A DNA stretch of 50,556 bases from an uncultured Granulosicoccaceae bacterium (GTDB lineage: Bacteria > Pseudomonadota > Gammaproteobacteria > Granulosicoccales > Granulosicoccaceae): NCBI GenBank assembly GCA_938045275.1, contig CALIMV010000125.1, positions 1 through 50,556 on the forward strand. The letters run 5' to 3'. The notes under the pieces were generated by a model. The model was not told the DNA's origin. It saw only the letters and a list, made by a program, of their open reading frames with translations, and made no database searches. Of this stretch, positions 12,506 to 49,905 are shown in pieces. Each line of letters opens with the position of its first letter. Positions within the stretch are counted from its first letter, which is position 1. The position numbers and the translations under genes are program-made.

Positions 12506-13498
12506 TCAGGTAACGCTTACGCACGGAAAGTACTGCTCTGGAGTAATGTATTCTTGTAGTTGCGTTTCGCAATAGTTTAAAAGATCAGTCTCGGTTTTCT
12601 CGTCGTAGGAGATCATGTTTTCGCGTACATTCATATTGGCGGCGAGTAGTTTTGACTCCGGATAGAGACGAATCATTTTTTTAAAGAACGGCTTGGGTAG
12701 TCGAAAAGGACCCAGGCTCACAGAATGAATGGCAGCTTGATCTAGCTCACTGAATACTTGTTCGAAAAAATTGTTGTAGAGTTTTTCCGCATTGTCAGTT
12801 TTTAATAGTGGATCGAACCTTAATCCAATTCGCCAGCCGTCTTGCTGTAGCGTTTTTAGCGCCGCTAAACGTTTATCCAGGCTTGGCGTTTTATGTTCTT
12901 CCTGAGAAACAATAGGTTCTGGTGACAAGCTGTATGCAACAACGCAGTTATCAATAGCCGGGCGCGTCAGCAGAGTACGAATTTGTGTGCTTTTGGTCCG
13001 AATTTCCAGATTTGCCTTGGGCATCTTGCTGAATGCATCAAGACAATCTGCCATGAAATTTGTCATCGGTTCCAATGCAAGGGAATCGCAATCGTAGCCG
13101 GAAAAAAACCAACTGGGCGTTTGATGACGGTCTGTTGTTTCACGAATGTCTTCGAAGAAGTCGTCGTAGTTAACAAACAGAACGTAGTTGGCAGAACGAT
13201 ACATGCCTTGCAGGTAGCAGTATCGACAATCGTAAATGCAGTTAAGCATGTGCGAGAAATAGTAATTGTTCTTACCACCTATGTGGTAACCAGGCGGGGT
13301 TGCTATCACTCGATTGCCGTGCTTGTTGGCAAGAATAAGGGCTGGATTACTTTTTTGAACTCTGAAATTTTGCCCTGGTGCATTGAACACGTCTGAATAG
13401 CGATTAATCATTATTTGCCGCGCCATCGGGTACCGATCCAGGATTGCCTTGGTGCGAGGCAATTTTAAAATATCCCTTTCTATGTAAATAGTGTCCAT
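12506..13498 (-). CDS. splB: Spore photoproduct lyase-like radical SAM protein
   Basis: Radical SAM enzyme resembling spore photoproduct lyase, which reverses the 5-thyminyl-5,6-dihydrothymine lesion. The cluster motif CxxxCxxC is at C87, C91 and C94. A further Cys at 137 in SGYDCDSLALE has the same offset from the cluster as the H-atom-donor Cys 141 of the Bacillus enzyme (91/95/98/141, a constant shift of four). The two relay tyrosines flanking the last cluster Cys (RYCY) are also kept. Length 330 is close to the spore enzyme. No sporulation gene is seen, so the in vivo lesion is uncertain. Located between a nucleosidase gene (33 bases upstream) and the SDR. Confidence 0.82.
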   Translation of the reverse strand: MDTIYIERDILKLPRTKAILDRYPMARQIMINRYSDVFNAPGQNFRVQKSNPALILANKHGNRVIATPPGYHIGGKNNYYFSHMLNCIYDCRYCYLQGMYRSANYVLFVNYDDFFEDIRETTDRHQTPSWFFSGYDCDSLALEPMTNFMADCLDAFSKMPKANLEIRTKSTQIRTLLTRPAIDNCVVAYSLSPEPIVSQEEHKTPSLDKRLAALKTLQQDGWRIGLRFDPLLKTDNAEKLYNNFFEQVFSELDQAAIHSVSLGPFRLPKPFFKKMIRLYPESKLLAANMNVRENMISYDEKTETDLLNYCETQLQEYITPEQYFPCVSVT

Positions 13499-45193: not shown

Positions 45194-45668
45194 TCAGATT
45201 CACTGTAATGCGTTTTAGCTTTATTGCTCGCAGGCATATGTTTTTTTAAGATAGGTTTGGAACGCAGGTGGCAACTGCGTAATTAAAAAGCGTGTTACTG
45301 AAGGTGCCAGTGATAAGCCACCTAAATCTTTTTCAACTTTGATGTAATGCCCGACAATATTCAATCAGGGCTAACAGTGCAAAATTCATCGCTGCCTATG
45401 CTTAAGTTGAGTAGACAGTATTGCAATGAAAAGAGAAAGCATTTCGATTGATATATTTTCTGCAAGTTGTACTATTACCCCGTCGCATAAAACGATGGGC
45501 TTGAGGGAGTTGGGGTCGGACCATCCTAAAATTATGATTTTTTTGATTATTTTGGGAAGATTCGGCTGTTTTATGGGCTTAGAGCGGCTTTTCATGCCAA
45601 AAAAATGCTTGTAACAAAACCGCAGCCCGGAGTGTTGGCCTCAATCAAGTACTTTTATTAAAGTACTT
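45194..45668. other. Long intergenic stretch before the photolyase island
   Basis: 475 bases without a convincing gene. A 62-codon plus-strand frame (45426-45614) has no ribosome site, family resemblance or supporting context. Structures: ACGCAG/CTGCGT (45262-45280), AGGTG/CACCT followed by CTTTTT (45302-45332), and a perfect 9-bp hairpin AAGTACTTT-TATT-AAAGTACTT (45647-45668) that abuts the photolyase stop codon. The last may help end the minus-strand photolyase transcript, although no T run follows it. Confidence 0.45.
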
Positions 45669-47204
45669 TCAAAAAGGTAGCTTAAGCTGAATTGATGTTT
45701 TGGTTACCTTCTTCTTTTGGTTGTTTGATCGCAGTCTGGAGCCATGTTTGGCTAAAACAGCTGCAGTGGGTTCTATGGCTTCGTCGCTTTTTTTAATCTG
45801 ACTGATCTGATCTTTAACCGCGGTGCTGTTAGCTGCGATGTCGCAGACCGGAGTTGGGTAGTCGCCTAAAGATTGATTGTTGTAATTGGCGATCTGTTTG
45901 CTAGTAAAGTTTCTTAGCTCAGGAACCCATTTTTTTGTAAATCGACAGTCCGGGTCATGGTCGAGTAGCTGTTTATGCGGATTGTATACCCGCATTGTGT
46001 TGATACCAACAATACCTGCTTGCATTTGTACTTGTGAAAAATGGATGCCTGGTTCGTAGTCATAGAACACACGTGCAAGTGGGTACTGCAGAACACGCCA
46101 GGAGAGCCTTAATCCAAAACACCCGGTAGTCACAAGCATGGCCCGCATTCGAAAGTTCAGAAACCCGGTGCTTTGCAGACATCGCATGCACGCATCTACC
46201 AAAGGTATACCTGTGTTGCCATGTATCCAGGCCTGCAGCAGTTCGGGCGCATCGACATACTTTACATGTTCAAATGCCGAATTCAGCGCCTGATGTTCCA
46301 TGTGACTTGCTGATTCAAGTCGCTGAATAAAATGATCTCTCCAGTGTAATCGAGACTGAAAAGCGCGTATGTTTCGGACAATGTGTGCTGCTTCTTTGCT
46401 TTGAGACTGTTGATAATCAAGTGTGCGTTGTGCGCTTTGATAGTGAATATTTCGAACGCTGATCGTACCCCAGGCTAAATGTGTTGACAGGCGTGAGCCG
46501 GTTTGAAAAGCGCTATTAGGTGATGAAATGCCGCGAGAGTAACCATTGACTCTGTGTTGAAGAAAGTGATGTAGCTCATCTTGTGCGCACGACTCATTGA
46601 CTTGTTGCATCTTGCGAAACTGAATACGTTGATCGATTTTTTGTGCGGTCATTTCGGTGTATTCAGGCCACATTGTATTAACAATGGAATCAGGTTCGAT
46701 TGGCCATGGTTGAATAAGCGTTGGTGCACTAACCGGCTTTTTATCGAATAAGCGAGCATGCGCAATTTCTGACTGCTGGTCTCTATCGACACACCCTCGT
46801 ACCACACCATTCTGGGTTTCTTCTGCCCATTTAACCGATGTTCGTTCGCACCATTGCATCACGCATTTGTCTCGGTTGAAAGTAATGGCATTCCCGGTTT
46901 CTTCATGGCTGTATATTGCGTCAAAGCCATGCTTGTTAAACAGGTGTTCGAATACATCGGTCGCTTCATCTTTAGCAAAATACAGTTCGCCGCCAATGTT
47001 GCGTAAATCCTGCTGTAGTGCATTGAGTCCCTGCCACCAGGCAAACACATGCATGGCAGATGTGTCTGGCGCATCGTAAAGTGAGGGCTCGCATATAAAC
47101 AGCGCTATCACCTGCTGGTGTTGCTCAATGGCCGATGTAAGAGCCTCGTTGTCGATCAATCGCATATCTCGCTTAACCCACCAAATAGCACGCGATTGAC
47201 TCAT
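45669..47204 (-). CDS. Cryptochrome/photolyase family protein (full-length)
   Basis: Light-dependent DNA repair or photosensory flavoprotein, 511 residues. The N-terminal antenna Rossmann domain begins AIWWVKRDMRLIDNEAL. The FAD domain has SRLHWRDHF, GNTGIPLVDACMRCL, GFLNFRMRAML and a late stretch with YDYEPGIHFSQVQMQAG and INTMRVYNP. The usual DGDLA-type FAD loop is replaced by YEPGIHF, which marks a subgroup apart from classical CPD photolyases; I cannot decide CPD, (6-4) or signalling. A lysine-rich tail extends past the core. The start is fixed by an ATGA overlap with the DUF2256 gene; a further 20 upstream codons exist in the frame. Confidence 0.85.
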   Translation of the reverse strand: MSQSRAIWWVKRDMRLIDNEALTSAIEQHQQVIALFICEPSLYDAPDTSAMHVFAWWQGLNALQQDLRNIGGELYFAKDEATDVFEHLFNKHGFDAIYSHEETGNAITFNRDKCVMQWCERTSVKWAEETQNGVVRGCVDRDQQSEIAHARLFDKKPVSAPTLIQPWPIEPDSIVNTMWPEYTEMTAQKIDQRIQFRKMQQVNESCAQDELHHFLQHRVNGYSRGISSPNSAFQTGSRLSTHLAWGTISVRNIHYQSAQRTLDYQQSQSKEAAHIVRNIRAFQSRLHWRDHFIQRLESASHMEHQALNSAFEHVKYVDAPELLQAWIHGNTGIPLVDACMRCLQSTGFLNFRMRAMLVTTGCFGLRLSWRVLQYPLARVFYDYEPGIHFSQVQMQAGIVGINTMRVYNPHKQLLDHDPDCRFTKKWVPELRNFTSKQIANYNNQSLGDYPTPVCDIAANSTAVKDQISQIKKSDEAIEPTAAVLAKHGSRLRSNNQKKKVTKTSIQLKLPF

Positions 47205-47374
47205 GAAGGTTTTTGTCTCGACGATCGACGACACTTTTGTGAGCAGTAAATTATTGATGGCCACAGTCCGCGAGATTGCCAGCGTTTGCGATTAGTGAAA
47301 GGTAGCCCGCACTGCGGGCAAACCTTACTCTGTTGTTTTGTGTTGCTGCCAGGTTTGGTCTTTTTGTTAGACAC
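47201..47374 (-). CDS. DUF2256 zinc-ribbon protein
   Basis: Very small protein (57 residues) with a treble-clef-like zinc site: CPQCGLPFTNRKRWQSRG and YCSQKCRR, the full DUF2256 signature. DUF2256 genes recur next to cryptochrome/photolyase genes in many bacteria, but their function is not known. I place the start at GTG 47374, whose first bases overlap the end of the upstream FAD-domain gene (GTGTCTAA); the open frame extends further, into that gene. Its stop overlaps the start of the downstream photolyase gene (ATGA). So the three genes are coupled in translation. Short length makes it easy to miss in automatic annotation. Confidence 0.88.
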   Translation of the reverse strand: MSNKKTKPGSNTKQQSKVCPQCGLPFTNRKRWQSRGLWPSIIYCSQKCRRSSRQKPS

Positions 47375-48476
47375 TGTGCTTTTTAACCTGTTTCCAGTAC
47401 TGCGAAAAGCTTCTGAATGCATTCTGCGGTTGCGGATACAACCAGGTTCGTGAATCGGTTGATTCGCCCCAATGATTGCAAGCCGGGTAGTCTTGTCTCA
47501 CGATGGTTGTATTCTGTAGCGCACATTGCAATTGCGCCACCGTGCCATGAACTATGAGCACATTGGGTATCAAATCAGCCCAGTGCAATACAAATTGCCA
47601 ACGATGCCGGCTCATGGGCCATTGGTTGTGTAATGCACTCTCTATAAAAAGCACCTGGTGGTCGGCATCCATACGCCACTGTGCATTTAACTGCCAAATT
47701 GATCGAACGGCAACAGTACCGGAGAGCGTAGGCATCTCTGTTACTGGTACGCCGGGTATGACTTGAGGCATTGACGCATCGGTAGTGTCGGCCAATTCAG
47801 CAGGTCTTTGAAAAGTTGCAAGCTTTTCGTAAGATACGTCCAGAAAAGTGCCTTGCTGATTAGATTGACTGTATTTATTAACGTTGTCCTGGTTGGCAAT
47901 GTAGCGTTTATCGCTGAAAGTGCCGGCCACCCACTGCCAACTTAAGGTATTACTTGCCAAGTCTCCGTCCAGTAAGTGGTAGTGCATCCATTTTGCTGCG
48001 CTTAGCCAATGAGTGTCTCCCATATTGCAGCAGAGCGCAGCCGTCCACATGCGCGCATGATTGTGCATGAATCCATGCGTGATCAAATTTCGTATCTCTT
48101 TATCAATAGCATGAATACCTGTTTTCGCATTCAGTATGGCGGTAGGAATTTGTCTTCGGTTGGAAGGGGAGGGTGTGCGCATATCCGTGAATATATCGTC
48201 ACCACACCGTTGCCAGACTCGATGGAAATATTCTCTCCATGCTAGTTCGTACATTAGCCGGTAGCAGTCTTTGCTTTTATTATGTTTAAAAACAGCTTCG
48301 GCCACGTCGCGAGTAGTAATGATGCCATGGGTGATAAACGGGCTAAGCCAGGTAACATCCCCATTGAGAAAATTTCTGGTTTTGCCGTAACTCACAGGGT
48401 CTATTTGCATTAGCCTCTGTGTAAGATCTTCATAACGGCAGAGAAAATGTGATATATCGTTAGGTCTATTTGTCAT
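47367..48476 (-). CDS. FAD-domain photolyase-like protein with a C-terminal Rossmann-like part
   Basis: Protein of 369 residues without the N-terminal antenna domain. Residues 14-205 match the photolyase FAD domain: TWLSPFITHG, ELAWREYF (77-84), TGIHAIDKEIRNLITHG, FMHNHARM, DGDLASN (170-176) and SWQWVAGTF. Residues 205-265 are a linker. The C-terminal portion (273-335: HQVLFIESALHNQWPMSRHR and ADLIPNVLIVHGTV) resembles the strand-helix pattern of an antenna domain, as if permuted. Related FAD-domain proteins are common in marine bacteria. First gene of the coupled trio. The ATG at 48476 lacks a ribosome site; an in-frame ATG at codon 23 has AGAGG close by. Confidence 0.78.
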   Translation of the reverse strand: MTNRPNDISHFLCRYEDLTQRLMQIDPVSYGKTRNFLNGDVTWLSPFITHGIITTRDVAEAVFKHNKSKDCYRLMYELAWREYFHRVWQRCGDDIFTDMRTPSPSNRRQIPTAILNAKTGIHAIDKEIRNLITHGFMHNHARMWTAALCCNMGDTHWLSAAKWMHYHLLDGDLASNTLSWQWVAGTFSDKRYIANQDNVNKYSQSNQQGTFLDVSYEKLATFQRPAELADTTDASMPQVIPGVPVTEMPTLSGTVAVRSIWQLNAQWRMDADHQVLFIESALHNQWPMSRHRWQFVLHWADLIPNVLIVHGTVAQLQCALQNTTIVRQDYPACNHWGESTDSRTWLYPQPQNAFRSFSQYWKQVKKHSV

Positions 48477-48492
48477 TCGTTTATAAGCTCAT

Positions 48493-49905
48493 ATGCGCAG
48501 CGTAGCACTGATTTTCCCAAATCAACTTTTTGAGTCACATCCGGTTTTACGTAAAAAACCGGAAAAGGTTCTGTTGGTGGAGAATTCATTGTTTTTTGGT
48601 GACGCACAATATCCGATGCGCTTTCATCCGAAAAAAATCACCTATCATCAAGATACACTGGCAGAATTTGGCGCGGCCTTAAAGAAGAAAAAGGTGGTGG
48701 TTGAACACATCACGTATCAGGATGGTGTCTGTGAGCTAGATGGCATCCTGAAGCAACTTTCTCACGACAAATTTGGAAAAATATACTGCGTCGAGCCGTG
48801 TGACTATGTGTTGGAGAAACGTTTGGTGCGAGCCGCACAGAAACATAATATCGAACTAACACTTCTACCTTCTCCCGGGTTTCTCAATACAAGCGAAGAA
48901 AATCAGGAATGGCGCTCCACCAGAAAACGCTGGCATATGGCCGATTTCTACAAGTGGCAACGAGTTCGGTTAGGCATTCTTATGGATGGTAAAGTGCCGG
49001 AAGGCGGGCAATGGAGCTATGACGAAGACAACCGTCGCAAGCTCCCGCTCAAGCAAATACCGTTGCTGCCAGCTCTGCCTGCCAATGATTACCCAACAAC
49101 GCCCGATAATGCCAGGCTTTGGCTGGAAGAGTTTTTACACTCGCGATTAGCATTGTTCGGTCCGTATGAAGATGCCATTGAGTCTGGTCAGAATTGGTTG
49201 TATCACAGTGTTTTAACCCCAATGCTCAACGTTGGATTGCTAACGCCAGATTACGTTGTCAATAAGACTTTGCAACATGCGCAAAAGCACAATGTGCCTA
49301 TAAATAGTGTTGAGGGGTTCATACGTCAGGTGATTGGATGGCGCGAATTCATGCGAGCAACCTATGAAGATCACGGCGTGACAATGCGAACCGGAAACAA
49401 CTGGCAACATACACGACCGATGCCCAAGGCATTCTATACAGCGAAAACAGGCATAGACCCTGTAGATGATTGTATTAAGCGGGTTAATGAACACGCTTAC
49501 TGTCATCATATTGAGCGTTTGATGATACTGGGTGGTTTTATGTTCTTGTGTGAAATTCAGCCAGATGACATTTACAAGTGGTTTATGGAATTGTTCATCG
49601 ATAGTTATGACTGGGTGATGGTACCCAACGTTTATGCCATGAGCCAACATGCTGATGGTGGTTTGATTACCACAAAACCGTATTTTTCTGGTTCAAACTA
49701 CGTAATCAAAATGAGTCACTACAAGAAAGGTCCTTGGAGCGAGGTGTGGGATGCGCTATTTTGGCGATGGATAATTAAAAACAAAGAAAAGCTGGCTGGC
49801 AATCATCGCTGGTCGATGATGTGTAAAAACGCTGAGAAGATGGATAAGGCGAAGCGACAGCAACATATAAAAACAGCGGAAAAATTCTTGAATAGTTTAA
49901 CGTGA
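48493..49905 (+). CDS. PhrB-like cryptochrome/photolyase without the iron-sulfur cysteines
   Basis: Protein of 470 residues of the bacterial FeS-BCP/(6-4) photolyase class. Support: the opening ALIFPNQLFESHPVL, the middle FIRQVIGWREFMR, HHIERLMILGGF, and the class signature MSQHADGGLITTKPYFSGSNYV (384-404). In the reference enzyme PhrB a [4Fe-4S] cluster is held by Cys 350, 438, 441 and 454. Here the first position aligns with Pro 323, and the cysteine loop between KMSHY and ALFWRWI is shortened, with no cysteines. Cluster-free repair or photosensory function is therefore predicted. Divergent from the FAD-domain gene, with only 16 bases between starts. Confidence 0.85.
   Translation: MRSVALIFPNQLFESHPVLRKKPEKVLLVENSLFFGDAQYPMRFHPKKITYHQDTLAEFGAALKKKKVVVEHITYQDGVCELDGILKQLSHDKFGKIYCVEPCDYVLEKRLVRAAQKHNIELTLLPSPGFLNTSEENQEWRSTRKRWHMADFYKWQRVRLGILMDGKVPEGGQWSYDEDNRRKLPLKQIPLLPALPANDYPTTPDNARLWLEEFLHSRLALFGPYEDAIESGQNWLYHSVLTPMLNVGLLTPDYVVNKTLQHAQKHNVPINSVEGFIRQVIGWREFMRATYEDHGVTMRTGNNWQHTRPMPKAFYTAKTGIDPVDDCIKRVNEHAYCHHIERLMILGGFMFLCEIQPDDIYKWFMELFIDSYDWVMVPNVYAMSQHADGGLITTKPYFSGSNYVIKMSHYKKGPWSEVWDALFWRWIIKNKEKLAGNHRWSMMCKNAEKMDKAKRQQHIKTAEKFLNSLT

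Follow-up and report, generated by a model that had tools for sequence, protein, structure and literature searches.

A cluster of four genes near one end of a 50,556-nucleotide stretch of DNA (the window; contig CALIMV010000125.1 of an uncultured Granulosicoccaceae bacterium) is, as we think rather likely, an ultraviolet (UV) photorepair island in which a small DUF2256 protein would act in trans as a dedicated partner of photolyase-type flavoproteins. The assembly is in 499 contigs and has a completeness of 82%. Three of the genes, here called CRY, FADC and PHRB, belong to the photolyase superfamily, and the fourth encodes DUF2256 (COG4338, PF10013). A sequence-only reading of the window had described this grouping, and it was borne out: a check of the open reading frames (ORFs) found all four where that reading had placed them, with Pfam matches to PF00875, PF03441, PF10013 and PF04244.

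45669..47204, minus strand: CRY, a divergent class-I-like photolyase/cryptochrome, likely 511 amino acids (aa) long with the ATG at 47204 as its start (531 aa if the ORF is read from the GTG at 47264)
47201..47374, minus strand: DUF2256, a small protein with four cysteines, likely 57 aa long when read from a GTG (73 aa from the ATG at 47422)
47367..48476, minus strand: FADC, an inverted-topology photolyase with a flavin adenine dinucleotide (FAD) domain at about 1-235 and a C-terminal alpha/beta domain at about 250-369
48493..49905, plus strand: PHRB, a PhrB/DPRP-type photolyase without Fe-S cysteines

The three photolyases are variants of published kinds; the new part is DUF2256 as a proposed dedicated photolyase partner. 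Photolyases are generally regarded as self-sufficient enzymes. DUF2256, which in our sample occurs only in photolyase-bearing genomes and tracks the bacterial (6-4) type within families, would be an undescribed partner. If this is true, a widespread domain of unknown function gains a function that can be tested in model organisms. The open-licence literature yielded no paper linking DUF2256 with photolyase, and a subscription paper could hold such a link.

Linkage of DUF2256 to photolyases

DUF2256 is statistically linked to photolyases, above all to those of the DPRP type. The sample consisted of 249 Pseudomonadota genomes, for which a completeness of at least 90% was requested and among which the window's own genome was included. 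PF10013 was present in 68 of them, PF04244 (DPRP) in 69 and PF03441 in 145. Both DUF2256 and DPRP were found in 59 genomes, DUF2256 alone in 9, DPRP alone in 10 and neither in 171 (odds ratio 112, Fisher p 1e-36). Among the 145 PF03441-positive genomes, DUF2256 occurred in 58/68 with DPRP vs 9/77 without it. This association persisted within families: a Cochran-Mantel-Haenszel test on these 145 genomes, stratified by family, gave z 6.0 (p 1.8e-9), and in 20000 within-family shuffles the observed 58 was never attained. In 14 control genomes PF10013 was found only in Caulobacter and Synechococcus elongatus, both of which carry PF04244; Haloferax has PF04244 without PF10013.

Every one of the 68 DUF2256 genomes has a PF03441 or PF04244 match (below the cut-off in one of them, G220, at E 1e-4), and DUF2256 was found in 0/103 genomes with neither. 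The first search scored at most 28 candidates per genome. A repeat search of all 181 DUF2256-negative genomes scored more candidates, with a cap near 80-138 in the largest genomes, and found DUF2256 in 0/40, 0/80 and 0/61 of them. The absence of DPRP from the nine DUF2256 genomes lacking it was confirmed by a repeat search, and each has another PF03441 match.

The genes are also often neighbors. At 41 of the 67 sampled loci DUF2256 has a photolyase-class gene within 6 kb, and at 32 it has one within 400 bp. In these 32 the two genes share a strand in 31 cases, and the nearest photolyase is a DPRP in 23, a CRY in seven and another type in two. By a rough estimate, about 1% of random 12-kb stretches would hold a photolyase, given a few photolyases per 4 Mb. 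Of the 59 genomes that carry DUF2256 and DPRP, 25 have no DPRP in the 6 kb around DUF2256, though in some it is 7-13 kb away; simple co-transfer or tight linkage therefore does not explain all of the co-occurrence. The statistics fit a protein that is useful where DPRP-type (sometimes inverted) photolyases work, linked or not.

A distinctly unlikely alternative is that these are co-regulated UV-stress genes carried together, with DUF2256 playing an independent role under the same stress. The looseness of the cluster, its variable spacing and the 26/67 DUF2256 loci that lie away from photolyases would suit it. It is opposed by the confinement of DUF2256, in this sample, to genomes with a photolyase-family match (68/68 vs 0/103). 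The unlinked loci also argue against it: the ten proteins flanking nine of the 26 show no common partner except malate synthase, which is beside two.

The three photolyase-type proteins

PHRB belongs to the DPRP type, with a PF04244 match at E 1e-41 and 143.6 bits (cut-off 22.1) over the N-domain and a sub-threshold PF03441 match. Its best match in the Protein Data Bank (PDB) is 9hnk (E 4.4e-68), and PhrB itself (5kcm and 4dja) matches at about 1e-64. None of the four cysteines that would bind a [4Fe-4S] cluster is present, as the sequence-only reading had noted; the four columns read P, K, gap and E. The residues H339, Y397, Y403 and W363 align with His366, Tyr424, Tyr430 and Trp390, which matter in PhrB mutants according to PMC4619345. 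Across 104 aligned DPRPs the His366-type histidine is found in all, each tyrosine in 103 (the remaining row is a gap) and the Trp390 equivalent in 103 or 104. The place of Trp342 is taken by Tyr in PHRB, and likewise in 30/47 Fe-S-less rows. Of 94 columns that are at least 95% uniform in Fe-S-type DPRPs, 57 are likewise conserved to at least 90% in the Fe-S-less type; the other 37, which include an Asp and a Glu of the N-domain, fall below that level. PHRB shares the DPRP N-domain and these four equivalents with the PhrB/FeS-BCP (6-4) photolyases (4dja, 7ykn/8a1h) and differs from them in its missing cysteines, its Tyr at the Trp342 place and two N-domain positions. These positions are N10 and F34 in PHRB vs Asp and Glu in 57/57 Fe-S-type rows, so lumazine binding is doubtful and the antenna may differ. 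The two positions may correspond to the 6,7-dimethyl-8-ribityllumazine contacts described in PMC9852545.

DPRPs of this kind have been reported before. FeS-BCPs without the cysteines make up 7% of 464 in PMC4619345, and PromaPL/Phr2 is a DPRP lacking the cluster, for whose cluster-free form the authors suggest activity on cyclobutane pyrimidine dimers (CPDs; PMC9426592). PHRB resembles both in being a DPRP without Fe-S cysteines and differs from them in its link to FADC and DUF2256. With CPD activity suggested for the form without cluster, PHRB may differ from PhrB in the lesion it repairs. We propose that PHRB is a repair enzyme, an Fe-S-free PhrB/DPRP relative that keeps the residues PhrB needs for (6-4) repair.

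Of 44 DPRPs that share a region with an FADC match, 43 have 0/4 Fe-S cysteines, and the exception (L155) lies beside a protein of the clade of alphaproteobacterial relatives of FADC. The cysteines are 4/4 in 53/53 DPRPs of the Pseudomonadota sample, and 0/4 in 13 of the 17 other DPRPs scored in Granulosicoccaceae. The four Fe-S-type DPRPs of this family (L204, L206, L208 and L212) have no adjacent FADC and are accompanied by a different form of DUF2256, the W form described below. For this scoring and the comparison of DUF2256 subtypes, loci L051-L069, L074 and L077 were set aside because they were presumed to be twins of L031-L050. Among those set aside, at least L060 and L061 are without a twin, and CxxC is missing from the L060 DPRP. 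Only DPRP rows above 250 bits were used, and the L075 DPRP was counted as 0/4 despite gaps in three of the four cysteine columns, where a contig end cuts it. To learn what the Fe-S cluster does, the cluster-free DPRPs that are conserved next to FADC can serve as a naturally occurring comparison.

FADC has only a PF03441 match in Pfam (E 1.2e-19, residues 76-212), with no family before it. An AlphaFold2 model based on a 70-row alignment (predicted local distance difference test, pLDDT, 96.2; predicted template-modelling score 0.93) shows a helical FAD domain followed by an alpha/beta domain at 253-369. The sequence-only reading was right about a C-terminal part; its label of FAD-domain-only does not hold, since that part is modelled as a folded domain. 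The inverted domain order, with the FAD domain N-terminal and the second domain C-terminal, holds for FADC. In Foldseek searches of the PDB, DASH cryptochromes and class I photolyases align with FADC over about 200-250 columns. The residues N139, R142, W157, D170, D172, N176, W180 and W182 are identical in 70/70 rows. At the glutamate of WRE, 61 rows have E and 9 have D; at the methionine of HNxxRM, 64 have M and the other 6 have L. Columns 106-111 of the same alignment, the approximate place of the third Trp of the triad, contain no Trp column. N139, R142, D170, D172 and N176 (70/70 rows) would make up the FAD-contact and catalytic set, with the Asn that faces N5 of the FAD; we take these roles from E. 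coli photolyase numbering. Together the conserved residues have the appearance expected of a CPD-type active site. In NewPHL, too, the N5-facing Asn is kept (PMC12083526).

Inverted-topology photolyases have been published as NewPHL/SPL, Phr4/Phr5, Phr6 and Phr7 (PMC9426592, PMC13274461), and FADC resembles them in having its FAD domain at the N-terminus and a second domain at the C-terminus. The statement of the sequence-only reading that the function of the antenna-less FAD protein is undescribed is not supported in that form. Like Phr7 as described in PMC9426592, FADC has no Fe-S cysteines. FADC differs from the published kinds in forming its own clade with Bacteroidota proteins and in adjoining an Fe-S-less DPRP and DUF2256. 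Its length is 369 aa, and five relatives from alphaproteobacteria have 390-410 aa. An FAD-domain tree places FADC in a single clade (100/99) of Granulosicoccaceae and Bacteroidota rows. This clade is weakly joined (84/43) to the alphaproteobacterial relatives and to a long-branched, plasmid-borne Deinococcus protein. The relatives in the tree are unnamed or plasmid-borne, and named NewPHL sequences are not among its rows. Such named sequences reportedly come from D. shibae and M. mesophilicum, and the NewPHL type is said to be marked by light-dependent repair of CPDs in single-stranded DNA. We propose that FADC is a repair enzyme with its C-terminal domain packed behind the FAD domain, and that it most likely repairs CPDs, perhaps in single-stranded DNA.

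The best weak Foldseek match of the C-terminal domain is phosphopantetheine adenylyltransferase (probability 0.77). No significant similarity emerged when this domain was compared by hhalign with the N-domains of CRY and of PHRB. A circular permutation of a standard photolyase, considered from the C-terminal sequence, found no significant support in hhalign, Foldseek or Pfam. It was set aside and the inverted order retained; the C-terminal domain may still be homologous to the antenna domain of other photolyases.

On a plasmid of Deinococcus psychrotolerans (L132, 3857-5230), a 457-aa FAD protein has its FAD domain first, a CxxC...C stretch and a C-terminal PF00875 match below the cut-off (E 0.001). 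By these features it resembles an Fe-S-type inverted photolyase, reminiscent of Phr4/Phr6, the inverted forms with Fe-S in PMC9426592. A gene for an AarF/ABC1/UbiB kinase adjoins the FADC-like gene in plasmid loci of the alphaproteobacteria Ruegeria and Peteryoungia and lies three genes on in Asticcacaulis (L131, L134, L135). In genome G208, which has DUF2256 and no DPRP, a 379-aa inverted-type relative (L273, 1030-2169, minus strand) is the sole PF03441 match.

CRY has the two-domain architecture of class I/III photolyases (1owl, 4u63) and of 2e0i, with Pfam matches to PF00875 (7.6e-21) and PF03441 (4e-48). It is closest to these photolyases and to 2e0i, its best PDB match (E 6.7e-36). Unlike them it lacks the FAD-facing Asn and the proximal Trp of a class I CPD photolyase: the Asn is replaced by His in 9/9 CRY rows and the Trp by I, V or L (7, 1 and 1). 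All nine rows read DYEPGIH..Q.QMQ in place of DGDLAANNGGWQW of 1owl, and D[YF]EPGIH..Q.QM is found in 15/15 further CRYs. In the FAD-domain tree CRY forms a separate long-branched clade (100/100), which its long branches may misplace. We regard it as a divergent photolyase/cryptochrome with an uncertain role.

These features raise the possibility of a light-sensing set, in which CRY, with His for the FAD-facing Asn and no proximal Trp, would be a photoreceptor and DUF2256 its signalling output. The constancy of the CRY motif (9/9 and 15/15) agrees with this, as do the 7/67 loci in which, of the photolyases within 400 bp, CRY lies closest to DUF2256. We consider it very unlikely, as DUF2256 tracks DPRP more than photolyases in general and catalytic-type residues are kept in FADC and PHRB.

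Conservation of the cluster and the role of DUF2256

The arrangement recurs in relatives, which was the check that the sequence-only reading had called for, and the linkage of DUF2256 to photolyases recurs across Pseudomonadota. A long FADC match (E < 1e-99) is present in 22 of 36 genomes of the host family, the window genome included, with two matches cut by contig ends; a 23rd genome has a fragment. Counts were made on 20 FADC-bearing regions of relatives and are lower bounds, as several regions stop at contig ends. DUF2256 follows FADC on the same strand in 16/20, and a DPRP faces FADC in 10/20, always with 0/4 Fe-S cysteines (10/10). CRY is found in 9/20, and the four-gene set is complete in 4/20. 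In the 16 relatives with both FADC and DUF2256, order and strand are constant and the spacing ranges from -112 to +99 nt with the chosen starts. The four genes form a loose cluster whose firmest pair is FADC-DUF2256. The proposal of a cooperating set thus stands as far as a conserved, non-chance cluster goes, and is too strong for the full four-gene set. PF10013 occurs in 33/48 host-family genomes. Three genomes (G005, G006 and G017) have no FADC orthologue, yet DUF2256 of the N subtype (see below) adjoins PHRB and/or CRY in them.

An alignment scan of named genomes found at least 473 stretches encoding a relative of FADC of any degree. Most of the best 80 are from Bacteroidota (Chitinophagaceae, Hymenobacter, Cytophagales), and the others are from Granulosicoccaceae or carry one of a few further titles. 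The pairing of FADC with an Fe-S-less DPRP recurs in Bacteroidota. Among the matches listed, a DPRP is also present in 30 of 53 further loci (L076-L130 without L077 and L084). From these loci 43 genomes, Bacteroidota by title except for one of Sphingomonadales, were taken for a DUF2256 search, and 17 of them for a DPRP search. DUF2256 was found in 42/43 of these FADC-bearing genomes and DPRP in 13/17. Clusters of Granulosicoccaceae-like FADC, DUF2256 and CRY also appear in three loci titled Candidatus Gracilibacteria (L071, L073 and L084); these are probably misbinned contigs, or else transfer.

The DUF2256 protein of the window matches PF10013 at E 5.7e-12 and 46 bits (cut-off 25). Its four cysteines, C35, C38, C60 and C64, are invariant in 17/17 aligned rows. 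The family is placed in the TRASH clan of cysteine metal-binding domains (PMC4047054). The window protein shares with PF10013 the CxxC and CxxxC pairs and the conserved basic/aromatic stretch. It differs from the canonical form in having N for W of the WR.. signature and a middle loop two residues longer. In subtype consensuses built from 40-letter stretches only, the common W form reads C..C.RPF.WRKKW...W..V.YCS.RCR, and the Granulosicoccaceae N form reads F.NRK.W.SRGLW.SI.YCS (a divergent NRKRW...SRGLW subtype). The W form was found in 35 of 36 copies near Fe-S DPRPs, the 36th (L186) being a false pattern match. Near Fe-S-less DPRPs the N form was found in 14/19 and the W form in 5/19; WRKKW is absent from the window copy. 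The N subtype was rejected as a direct mark of Fe-S loss: in L203, L086, L104, L116 and L123 the W form accompanies an Fe-S-less DPRP. Overlaps between some long DUF2256 frames and photolyase frames of the same strand also occur; these were taken as different frames, with no systematic fusion search. A search for DUF2256 on plasmids gave no match.

From the sequences we infer the enzyme activities, the zinc binding and the partner mechanism. DUF2256 would be a small, probably zinc-binding metal-knuckle protein that is made with photolyases and acts in trans. Most likely it binds the photolyase, DNA or both and in this way keeps the enzyme stable or brings it to its lesions; it may recruit, stabilize or reduce the enzyme. 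More tentatively, and with some doubt on our part, DUF2256 might be a general accessory subunit of prokaryotic photolyases and the first dedicated partner of such a kind, with subtypes matched to the photolyase set; the Granulosicoccaceae subtype would then serve an all-Fe-S-free pairing of DPRP and inverted photolyase.

DUF2256 might instead be a maturation or stability factor for photolyases, inserting flavin, antenna or Fe-S or acting as a chaperone, and not an adaptor to DNA or lesions. In 23/67 loci the photolyase closest to DUF2256 is a DPRP no more than 400 bp away, on the same strand in 22. PhrB mutants in Fe-S cysteines were insoluble or unexpressed (PMC4619345), which makes a stability helper plausible. 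We hold this explanation to be unlikely, though credible. DUF2256 is kept beside DPRPs with no Fe-S cysteines (in Granulosicoccaceae and in L203), so Fe-S insertion is not its sole role, and the ten DPRP genomes without DUF2256 all have 4/4 cysteines. The narrower idea of a plain Fe-S insertion factor is weakened by the same Fe-S-less DPRPs.

Several observations weigh against a photorepair island with DUF2256 as dedicated partner. There are nine DUF2256 genomes without DPRP and ten DPRP genomes without DUF2256, so DUF2256 is neither strictly DPRP-specific nor DPRP-essential. No photolyase lies within 6 kb of DUF2256 at the 26 unlinked loci, and 4/17 Bacteroidota-type genomes have FADC and DUF2256 without DPRP. 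The C-terminal domain of FADC alone has no PDB match at E<=0.001 in Foldseek, and Pfam gives no family for this domain common to the 70 FADC members. Finally, the general linkage may not carry over unchanged to the window, because its DUF2256 is of a divergent subtype.

Gene layout and neighboring genes

Two further features belong to the layout of the island:

48477..48492: the 16 bp that separate the start codons of the divergent genes FADC and PHRB
45647..45668: inverted repeat with perfectly matching 9-bp arms, AAGTACTTT-4 nt-AAAGTACTT, directly past the CRY stop codon

The overlapping starts and stops that had been noted in the minus-strand trio were found. The sequence ATGA (47204-47201) is common to the stop codon of DUF2256 and the likely start of CRY, and because the CRY start sits in this overlap CRY is likely 511 aa and not 531. 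The FADC stop and the likely GTG start of DUF2256 overlap by 8 nt; the ATG at 47422 instead would give 56 nt. The sequence-only reading had concluded from these overlaps that the products are made in linked amounts; this is not supported in that form, as the overlap varies among relatives.

With the starts of FADC and PHRB 16 bp apart, their promoters should overlap the opposite coding sequence, or the transcripts should be nearly leaderless. The corresponding gap in 10 relatives is 19-120 bp (19 bp in L031 and 36-120 bp in the nine others). The inverted repeat past CRY is a possible A+T-rich terminator; it is absent from the terminator-like sites called by a separate scan. Promoter-like and terminator-like sites were rarer than in shuffled sequence.

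Beyond PHRB, on the opposite strand, the window encodes a DUF1266 protein (PF06889; 49978-50556, minus strand). About 32 kb from the island, at 12506-13498 on the minus strand, lies a gene whose product belongs to the spore photoproduct lyase family (PF20903, E 8.1e-20), possibly another UV-lesion enzyme in a non-sporulating gammaproteobacterial host.

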